From positions 1 through 46,336 of the forward strand of contig JBDKTO010000007.1 in the NCBI GenBank assembly GCA_039680175.1: a DNA stretch of 46,336 bases. Reading direction: 5' to 3'. A program made the position numbers and the translations under genes. Shown piece after piece: positions 24,305-46,087 of this stretch (positions within the stretch are counted from its first letter, which is position 1; each line of letters opens with the position of its first letter). This DNA comes from Veillonellales bacterium. Lineage in GTDB: Bacteria > Bacillota > Negativicutes > JAAYSF01. Under the pieces are notes generated by a model. The model saw only the letters and a program-made list of their open reading frames with translations, did no database searches and was not told the origin of the DNA.

Positions 24305-24603
24305 GAAAAAATAGATAACCCGCAAGAGCATTCTCTTGCAGGTTATCTCCGGCACTTTCCTTTTTGACCTGGCTACTCTTTGTTAAGCTTTTTCTGGAGA
24401 CAATCACTTAACTTCGCGAGAGGCATACCTCTCTTCTGTCCCAGTCAGTACGCTATGTGCCGGAGCTGAACTGTCGCCACTAACGTCTTAGCCCTTTGCG
24501 CTAATAAAGGTGTGACCGTGACAGCTCTTGCAGAGGAGCCATCCGAACTTTCCCCTATGGGTTTTGATACCTTTCCGGCATCTTCCGAACAGCCCCTGCT
24601 ATT
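24305..24603 (-). ncRNA. Probable stand-alone structured ncRNA
   Basis: No reading frame covers this stretch, but it is GC-rich and highly paired. On the minus strand GAGCTGTC/GACAGTTC (24527-24520 with 24475-24468) and CTCCGGCAC/GTGCCGGAG (24465-24457 with 24355-24347) form long-range helices, and GAGAGG/CCTCTC (24433-24418) a tight hairpin. CTGGGAC can pair with GTCTCCAG further down, and GTTAAG with CTTAAC. The 3' end is a perfect-looking terminator (24313-24348) followed by six T. A promoter lies just upstream. No minus-strand gene follows, so a riboswitch leader is unlikely. I could not match it to 6S, SRP, RNase P, tmRNA or T-box RNA. Confidence 0.6.
24313..24348 (-). terminator. Terminator of the ncRNA
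   Basis: AGATAACC-x-GCAAGAG and CTCTTGC-x-GGTTATCT form a 15-bp stem with one mismatch and a CATT-type loop. The T-run is on the minus strand (24305-24310), which fixes the direction. Confidence 0.85.
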
Positions 24604-24609
24604 GATTTA

Positions 24610-24638
24610 ACTATACCATATATCCCCTGTGCCTGCAA
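24610..24638 (-). promoter_or_regulatory. Sigma-70-type promoter of the ncRNA
   Basis: On the minus strand TTGCAG (24638-24633) and TATAGT (24615-24610) are separated by exactly 17 nt. Transcription would start near 24603. The upstream region to 24700 is AT-rich. Confidence 0.65.
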
Positions 24639-24776
24639 TTATTATTTTGTAATATTATGAATAATTATATAGTTGTTCATAATATTACTTAGTTAGAAGG
24701 ATATTAACCGCTCAGGCAGAATACGCTCAATAAAAAGAAAAACCGCTGTCAGCTATAATAAAGGAGACATAAATTC

Positions 24777-44204: not shown

Positions 44205-46087
44205 ATCGAGTAGGAGGCTACCCATTAATTGAGTAGCCGACCTCTCCCACCACAGTGCGTACCGTTCGGTACACGGCGGTTCAATAATTTAACGTAAATG
44301 AAATGCCTCGTATTTCTTCGTTATGTTCATATAGCCTAGGGATTCGAGGTATTTGTCTGTTAGCGTTCTTTTCAGTATTGGACTATTTGCTACACGCCAA
44401 TATCCCAATCTTGTATTGGCGTATTCCCATGCTTTCCTTTTATCCAGTCCTAATCTTTTCAGATTTTCAAACCGTGCCGAGATTTTCTTCCATTGTTTCC
44501 ATAGATACATTCTCAACCTGCGTCTTATCCACTGATTCATTTCCTGCATTTTGCCCCGCATGTCAGCGATGGAAAAATAGCCCAGCCATCCGGTTGTGTA
44601 TCTTCTTAGTTCCAGCAAAATGGCACCGATTGATCGGCCTCTGTTGCGGCCGGTTATTTCTTTGACCTTTTGCTTGTATCGTTTTAATACTTTGCCATGG
44701 GGCCGGATTCCTACTTTTCCTACTGCTTTATGCAGTGAGAATCCAAGAAACTTCTCGCGTAACGGACTGCCTACCTTACTTTTCTTACGGTTTACTTTTA
44801 GTTTCAGTTTCTCTTCAAGATAGCTTATACAGCTTTCCATTACGCGTTTTGCAGCTCTGGGACTTTTCACGTAGACATTACAGTCGTCTGCATATCTCAC
44901 AAATTTATGTCCTCTGCTTTCCAGCAGTTTGTCGAATTTCGTGAGATAAATATTGGATAGGAGCGGTGACAGATTCCCTCCCTGCGGTGTTCCCGCTAGG
45001 GTCGGGCTCATTATACCGCCTTCCATGACTCCGCTTTTCAGATATTTCCGGATAAGCCCTATTACCCGCTCATCTTTTATTTTCTCGCGGAGCATGTTGA
45101 TGAGAATGTCATGGTTCACTGTGTCGAAGTACTGCGCCAGGTCGAGCTCTACTATTCTCGTATATCCCTCTTCATAGTAGGCTTCTGCCTGCTTTATGGC
45201 CTGATGCGCATTTCTTCCCGGTCGGAAGCCATAGCTACTATCGGAAAATGTCTCTTCGAAGATTGGCTGGAGTACCTGCGCTATGGCCTGCTGTATCAGC
45301 CTGTCCAATACCGTTGGTATTCCCAGCTTTCTTTTGCCGCCGTCCGGTTTCGGAATTTCTACCCGTCGTACCGGCTGTGGCTTGTATCTTTCGCTTTTCA
45401 GGGCTTCAAGAAATTCTCCTTTGTGCTCTTTCAGCCACGCTTTCATCTCACCAACCTGCATTCCGTCTATTCCTGCAGCACCTTTCTTACGCATTACTCG
45501 AAAATAGGCTTTATTCAGATTGTCACGGCTTAAAATTTGCTCTAACAAGTTTACGCGGTTCCTTCTTGCCGATTCCGGTGTCACCATGCTCCGCGCTCCC
45601 TTGCTGCTCTTTGCTTCCAGCATACCCTCACAGGGGCAGCCCATTTTACTGGTTTTCTGCTCTCTTAACATGTCTTCACCTTCCTTTGCTCAGAAACTCG
45701 ATTATTGTTCGGTCTTTCCCGGGAATTTCCCCGGTACTATGACCTCGGCTGACTTCTCACGGTAAATCTTGTTTCAACCATGCTTCAATTTAATTATTTC
45801 CGCATGTCCGCGAGACCTCCCCGGGTAAGAACGCAGTCTTTCTCTCCATCTATCCGCTACATCTACAGGATTAGCCTCGAATAGTTTAGGGCTTCAGTTT
45901 GTGAGGCAACCTTACCCGGCTTCTTCCTGCCTTGTATGTGATTTCTGTTCGTCGGACCGGAGATTTGCCGCTGGCTTCCTTCAGATTCCACCTCGCGATG
46001 GACACCCTTGCTTTAAGCTGTACGCTTGGCACTATTAACCCGCGCTCGGGACTTTCACCCGTTAGACTGCGCCCATGCCGGGCGCAC
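44205..46087 (-). mobile_element. Complete group II intron, bacterial class C
   Basis: On the minus strand the element starts GTGCGCCCGGCATGGGCGC at 46087 and ends CTCGAT at 44205, about 1.88 kb. Domain V is the 34-nt hairpin near 44249-44282 (GAACCGCC...GGTACGCAC). Domain VI is the GGCTACTC/GGGTAGCC hairpin at 44216-44238. It encodes one reverse transcriptase. Class C introns insert behind terminator hairpins, and here the hairpin 46091-46131 lies directly upstream, while the 3' flank TTTTATC looks like the displaced T-tract of that terminator. Confidence 0.92.
44289..45671 (-). CDS. ltrA: Group II intron reverse transcriptase/maturase
   Basis: The 460-residue protein has the intron RT blocks: RRVEIPKPDGGKRKLGIPTVLDR near residue 103, YGFRPGRNAHQA near 148, LDLAQYFDTVNHD near 176, GTPQGGNLSPLLSNI near 228 and the catalytic YADD near 262. 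A maturase X domain follows, with KFLGFSL and RYTTGWLGYF. It has no HNH endonuclease at its end, as expected for class C. The ATG follows GGAAGGTG. The protein splices and mobilises the surrounding intron. Confidence 0.95.
   Translation of the reverse strand: MLREQKTSKMGCPCEGMLEAKSSKGARSMVTPESARRNRVNLLEQILSRDNLNKAYFRVMRKKGAAGIDGMQVGEMKAWLKEHKGEFLEALKSERYKPQPVRRVEIPKPDGGKRKLGIPTVLDRLIQQAIAQVLQPIFEETFSDSSYGFRPGRNAHQAIKQAEAYYEEGYTRIVELDLAQYFDTVNHDILINMLREKIKDERVIGLIRKYLKSGVMEGGIMSPTLAGTPQGGNLSPLLSNIYLTKFDKLLESRGHKFVRYADDCNVYVKSPRAAKRVMESCISYLEEKLKLKVNRKKSKVGSPLREKFLGFSLHKAVGKVGIRPHGKVLKRYKQKVKEITGRNRGRSIGAILLELRRYTTGWLGYFSIADMRGKMQEMNQWIRRRLRMYLWKQWKKISARFENLKRLGLDKRKAWEYANTRLGYWRVANSPILKRTLTDKYLESLGYMNITKKYEAFHLR

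Follow-up and report, generated by a model that had tools for sequence, protein, structure and literature searches.

A candidate family of free-standing, pseudoknotted noncoding RNAs in some Negativicutes

The window analysed here, a 46,336-nt stretch of DNA from a Veillonellales bacterium, holds between two protein genes about 300 nt that encode no protein. Does this interval specify an RNA of its own, and what kind of RNA would it be? The original prediction proposed a new ncRNA of about 300 nt, with its own promoter and terminator, within 24305-24638. The interval proved right, the RNA itself occupying about 24603-24305, and the proposal is upheld by covarying homologues, conserved signals, the lack of an Rfam match and changing gene neighbours. 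Almost certainly the gene is genuine and free-standing, and its structured RNA belongs to a new family. The locus is best explained as an independent structured noncoding RNA gene of ~300 nt, and its product probably acts in trans through its fold.

Gene borders and transcription signals

Direct reading of the window places the RNA gene on the minus strand, ~24603-24305 (~299 nt), with the following elements.

24633..24638 (-), -35 box TTGCAG; TTG at the equivalent position in 8/8 homologues
24610..24615 (-), -10 box TATAGT, extended by an upstream TGG, spacer 17 nt; 8/8 homologues have TATANT with TGG or TGA in front and the same spacer length
24305..24603 (-), RNA of ~299 nt, predicted start 24603/24602 and predicted 3' end in the U tract, from promoter-to-helix distance, fold z and homologues
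24305..24348 (-), intrinsic terminator, 16-bp stem 24348-24313 followed by a U tract, from the terminator scan; equivalents in other copies

The predicted TTGCAG-17-TATAGT promoter is present on the minus strand (24638-24633 and 24615-24610), and its geometry is common to all eight clear copies, with a TTG-type -35 box, a spacer of exactly 17 nt and an extended -10 (TGG or TGA plus TATANT). The distance from the -10 box to helix P1 is 6-8 nt in every one of the eight, and an A/T-rich stretch was found upstream of the promoter. A generic consensus promoter scan missed the window promoter because its -35 box is weak, TTGCAG sharing three of six letters with TTGACA; comparison with the relatives recovers it. 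We infer that the gene is transcribed from this predicted promoter, a constitutive-looking element of the sigma-70/SigA type with an extended -10 that would start the transcript at the foot of P1, and that the intrinsic terminator would end it. The strong terminator expected at the 3' end was listed by the scan as the stem 24348-24313 with its U tract, and an intrinsic terminator closes each of the clear copies. Comparison of the eight copies revealed no conserved short ORF in the RNA, in keeping with the claim of a stretch without a reading frame, and the minus strand downstream carries no gene for ~3.8 kb, as had also been claimed.

Two further elements were observed near the promoters. In the gap that separates the RNA promoter from the divergent FMN reductase gene lies an A/T-rich palindrome (24649-24688, 20-nt arms, 90% complementary); it looks like an operator and is not common to the other RNA loci. 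A AAGACAAAATATT...TCTGAAAA stretch 5' of the -35 box is found in L034, L035 and L039 (about 1420-1455), which hold the copies of genomes G163 and G164 and the second copy of G317, and could serve as an UP element or bind a regulator.

Fold and long-range pseudoknot

The overall fold comprises P1 (a branched 5' stem-loop), P2 and P3, and a 6-bp pseudoknot joins P2 and P3. The elements are given below; where no other evidence is named, those of P1 and P2 come from the eight-copy pairing analysis and those of P3 from comparison across copies.

24584..24601 (-), P1 5' strand, G-U-rich helix of the branched 5' domain
24531..24547 (-), P1 3' strand
24566..24582 (-), P1a hairpin; 6 pairs, 4 changed on both sides, 100% of cells paired
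24552..24560 (-), P1b hairpin
24520..24527 (-), P2 5' strand; both-side changes in 4/8 pairs
24468..24475 (-), P2 3' strand
24512..24516 (-), P2a 5' strand; both-side changes in 4/5 pairs, 100% of cells paired
24476..24480 (-), P2a 3' strand
24487..24505 (-), P2b terminal hairpin; both-side changes in 4/6 pairs
24481..24486 (-), pseudoknot 5' strand ACGUUA, 6 nt between P2b and P2a; pairs with 24455-24450 in eight copies, with compensatory changes
24450..24455 (-), pseudoknot 3' strand UAGCGU, within the P3 internal loop; pairs with 24481..24486
24457..24463 (-), P3 outer helix 5' strand CCGGCAC; equivalent with different letters in seven distinct copies
24349..24355 (-), P3 outer helix 3' strand GUGCCGG
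24441..24447 (-), P3 inner helix 5' strand
24365..24372 (-), P3 inner helix 3' strand
24418..24434 (-), P3b hairpin, variable part, missing from the short G115 copies
24382..24412 (-), P3c stem-loop, variable part, missing from the short G115 copies

The window RNA is more stable than its shuffled versions, both with the terminator (fold z = -5.2, 0/100 shuffles as stable) and without it (z = -3.8, 0/200), and the clear copies without their terminators range from -2.7 to -6.3. Covariation was assessed in an alignment of eight copies, seven of them distinct, over a seven-helix structure with 51 pairs and 351 cells. Paired cells reach 97.2%; shuffles give 89.1%, and shifting the partners by one to three columns brings the figure to 40.8% or less. 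Both sides have changed in 24 pairs; shuffles average 10.3, and 0/500 attain the observed count. Because the fit of the alignment followed the nested helices, both figures lean towards them. The search for homologues with covariation that the prediction called for thus yielded eight clear copies and these 24 doubly changed pairs. At least three long-range helices had been proposed and, judging by the covariation, P1, P2 and P3 are real. The outer and inner helices of P3 are built from different letters in the seven distinct copies. Beyond the inner helix P3 is variable, and this part is missing in the G115 copies, which are shorter for that reason.

The pseudoknot was left out of the search model. 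Its cells are 100% paired across the eight copies, three of the six pairs show compensatory changes, and pairing fails directly outside the six; scored by itself, the helix is matched by 5/500 shuffles.

Such a fold has to be weighed against a base-pairing small RNA acting in trans. In that reading the structure would protect the molecule, and target mRNAs would pair with an exposed loop such as ACCUUUA (opposite the pseudoknot) or AAAAAGGAA (in P3). The gene is free-standing with a terminator, its size falls within the range of some small RNAs, and some loop segments are purine- or C-rich. However, the candidate loops vary between copies while the helices and the pseudoknot are kept, and the majority of letters lie within helices. 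We regard this explanation as rather unlikely. The conserved features are the helices, the G-U-rich stem at the branched junction and the long-range pseudoknot, not an exposed pairing segment, which favours protein or ligand binding over antisense action, a leader or the decay of a mobile element.

Relatives, distribution and gene neighbours

A blastn search over whole genomes found a full-length homologue of 68% identity in G009, from another family of the class, and a partial match in G317 that is a complete gene with promoter and terminator. The window, G009 and G317 copies gave a first covariance model, which covers the 5' 169 positions and added five copies, one each in G163 and G164 (98 bits), a further one in G317 (95 bits) and a pair in G115 (79 and 74 bits). 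A second covariance model confirmed the earlier copies and added a diverged copy in G007 (L050, 36 bits). In this copy P2, the terminator and the pseudoknot sequence (ACACUA/UAGUGU) are preserved, and inspection showed no recognisable P1. In total, eight clear copies in six genomes, two of which (G317 and G115) carry two each, and one diverged copy in a seventh were identified, all within Negativicutes. Family members in the G115 lineage are a short form, about 200-235 nt long.

The RNA is narrowly and patchily distributed: 7 of ~380 genomes in the class carry it, and among 299 genomes sampled from the phylum the window's own genome alone gave a match. The large searches were run with strict filters, and the absences apply at those filters. 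This pattern argues against a core function. No copy was found on plasmids, and none of four pattern matches in viral contigs carries the RNA. A pattern scan of genome contigs gave 11 matches, of which only CTSoil_073 and CTSoil_079, loci already known, are real. Among weak profile matches, L038 was rejected as lying within an rpoC-like reading frame and L052 for absence of recognisable family features, and the dubious L037 was left out of the copy count. A 32-nt blastn match in G134 was not recovered by the profile.

The neighbouring genes differ from locus to locus. The window copy lies between an SNF2-type helicase gene (convergent) and an FMN reductase gene (divergent). Beside the G009 copy is a BASS-type transporter, and the G163/G164 copies are flanked by TetR with an RND-type pump and by a sensor kinase (the transporter and the pump are named from their translated sequences). 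A CsgG-type protein adjoins the G317 copy, and the two G115 copies have LysR and an Asp/Glu racemase in one case and ProQ and a peptidase in the other. No two non-orthologous loci have related neighbours, and the loci resemble each other in DNA sequence over the RNA and its promoter alone, except for G163 and G164, which are true orthologous loci. The congeners of G317 keep the neighbouring CsgG gene, and the RNA was not found in them. Unrelated neighbours, similarity confined to RNA and promoter, and a CsgG gene kept without the RNA together argue for a free-standing, accessory, trans-acting RNA.

These neighbourhoods also bear on a cis-acting leader, a riboswitch or attenuator of the downstream gene. 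An aptamer-like pseudoknotted fold with a terminator at its end would suit such an element, and a same-strand gene does lie downstream in G009, in G163/G164 (sensor kinase) and in G317 (CsgG). But in the window and at one G115 copy the next gene is convergent, leaving nothing for a leader to regulate; the downstream genes are otherwise unrelated from locus to locus, with no consistent same-strand gene among them, and the CsgG gene of the G317 congeners does without the RNA. A leader is improbable on these grounds.

Also highly improbable are two further readings, that the RNA is left over from a mobile element or that it regulates the SNF2-type helicase as an antisense RNA. A patchy distribution and two copies in two genomes would fit a mobile element, yet the similarity stops at the RNA and its promoter, and no ORF is associated with it. 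The description of the RNA as antiparallel to the helicase end holds for its position, which is convergent to that gene. An antisense role is not supported, because no other copy examined adjoins a helicase; moreover, the 3' end of the RNA lies ~100 nt past the helicase stop codon (24202), so the two do not overlap.

Other RNA elements were noted in these loci. The second G317 copy is followed closely by a T-box leader (L039 1850-2095), the first has a TPP riboswitch (L007 53-164, minus strand) nearby, and both elements look unrelated to the RNA. Near its end the window has two Rfam matches to group II intron D1-D4 (45712-46002, minus strand), and it also encodes an OmpH-like outer-membrane protein.

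Mode of action and comparison with known RNAs

Gene borders, fold, pseudoknot and neighbour independence are supported by comparison of the copies; the expression, abundance and mode of action of the RNA we infer. Three domains would make up the folded transcript: P1 with P1a and P1b forming a branched 5' domain, P2/P2a/P2b forming a long hairpin, and P3. The 6-bp pseudoknot from the P2 bulge to the P3 internal loop would lock them together. The folded shape may then bind a protein or small ligand in trans; a role as antisense RNA or as leader of a single gene is less likely. The changing neighbours and the structural complexity are what point to action in trans as the most likely mode, and on balance we lean towards action through the folded shape. 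A bolder reading, which we put forward tentatively, is a new class of pseudoknotted trans-acting RNA in some Negativicutes with a role unlike that of known RNAs, either in a dedicated ribonucleoprotein or in ligand sensing or catalysis.

No conserved protein partner was found. A ProQ/FinO-domain protein (L046 7395-7823, plus strand, E 3.9e-27) is encoded just upstream of one RNA copy in G115, and the family occurs also in G314 and G012, only 3 of the 64 class genomes tested; ProQ was rejected as partner because the other genomes tested that carry the RNA, the window's among them, lack it.

New free-standing RNAs of such size and complexity are uncommon, and raiA/ModT and OLE, once studied, had broad roles. 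The present RNA offers defined borders, a covariation-supported fold and a pseudoknot amenable to disruption and rescue by mutating its two sides. The family supplies natural variants, including the short form, and its presence and absence within one class give a route to a partner through genome comparison.

Known families were compared by Rfam scan. The window locus gave no match above threshold and, up to E 10, chance-level scores only, mostly from microRNA models on the terminator hairpin; no known family, with raiA, 6S and OLE among those scanned for, matches the RNA. The raiA motif (RF03072) was not matched up to E 10 at the window locus, nor at the gathering score in the homologue loci; OLE, ROOL and GOLLD models gave no match up to E 10 at the window locus; the 6S model (RF00013) gave none at the RNA locus, and ARAGORN found no tmRNA in the window. 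A diverged housekeeping RNA (6S, RNase P, tmRNA or SRP) or raiA would resemble this RNA in size, promoter and structuredness. Such an identity is nonetheless barely credible given the chance-level scores, two 6S RNA genes identified by Rfam elsewhere in the window's genome (G000:C45:72457-72629 and G000:C4:23398-23571), and the absence of the RNA from most genomes of the class alongside its duplication in some. Its own promoter and terminator, covarying fold, lack of a conserved ORF and independence of neighbours are those of a free-standing structured ncRNA.

The literature searched, which covered few subscription papers or preprints, yielded no description of the RNA. In the part of one survey reached by text search, the Negativicutes motifs located are gene leaders, and HRC-28-1 comes from Polynucleobacter (PMC8632094). 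The RNA appears to be the founding example of a family absent from Rfam.

Like 6S RNA, it is free-standing and structured, with its own promoter. 6S RNA is a long rod with a central bubble, whereas the present RNA is branched and has a pseudoknot. OLE, ROOL and GOLLD are orphan, highly structured bacterial RNAs in which the fold is the functional unit (PMC12286853). The window RNA is likewise orphan and highly structured, at ~300 nt, with no Rfam match and no tRNA within the loci compared. OLE, ROOL and GOLLD are larger, about 600 nt or more. raiA/ModT is a free-standing, trans-acting RNA of 215-260 nt with a SigA promoter, terminators, a three-way junction and pseudoknots (PMC11706538, PMC11751092), two of the latter among eight helices P1-P8 (PMC11751092). 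The present RNA shares with it the free-standing gene, SigA-type promoter, terminator and pseudoknot. It differs in helix order, in that P1 is a self-contained 5' domain and a single supported pseudoknot, of 6 bp, joins P2 and P3, and in range, a handful of genomes of one class against over 2,500 species for raiA. The nearest RNAs in kind are raiA/ModT and OLE, with a family match to neither.
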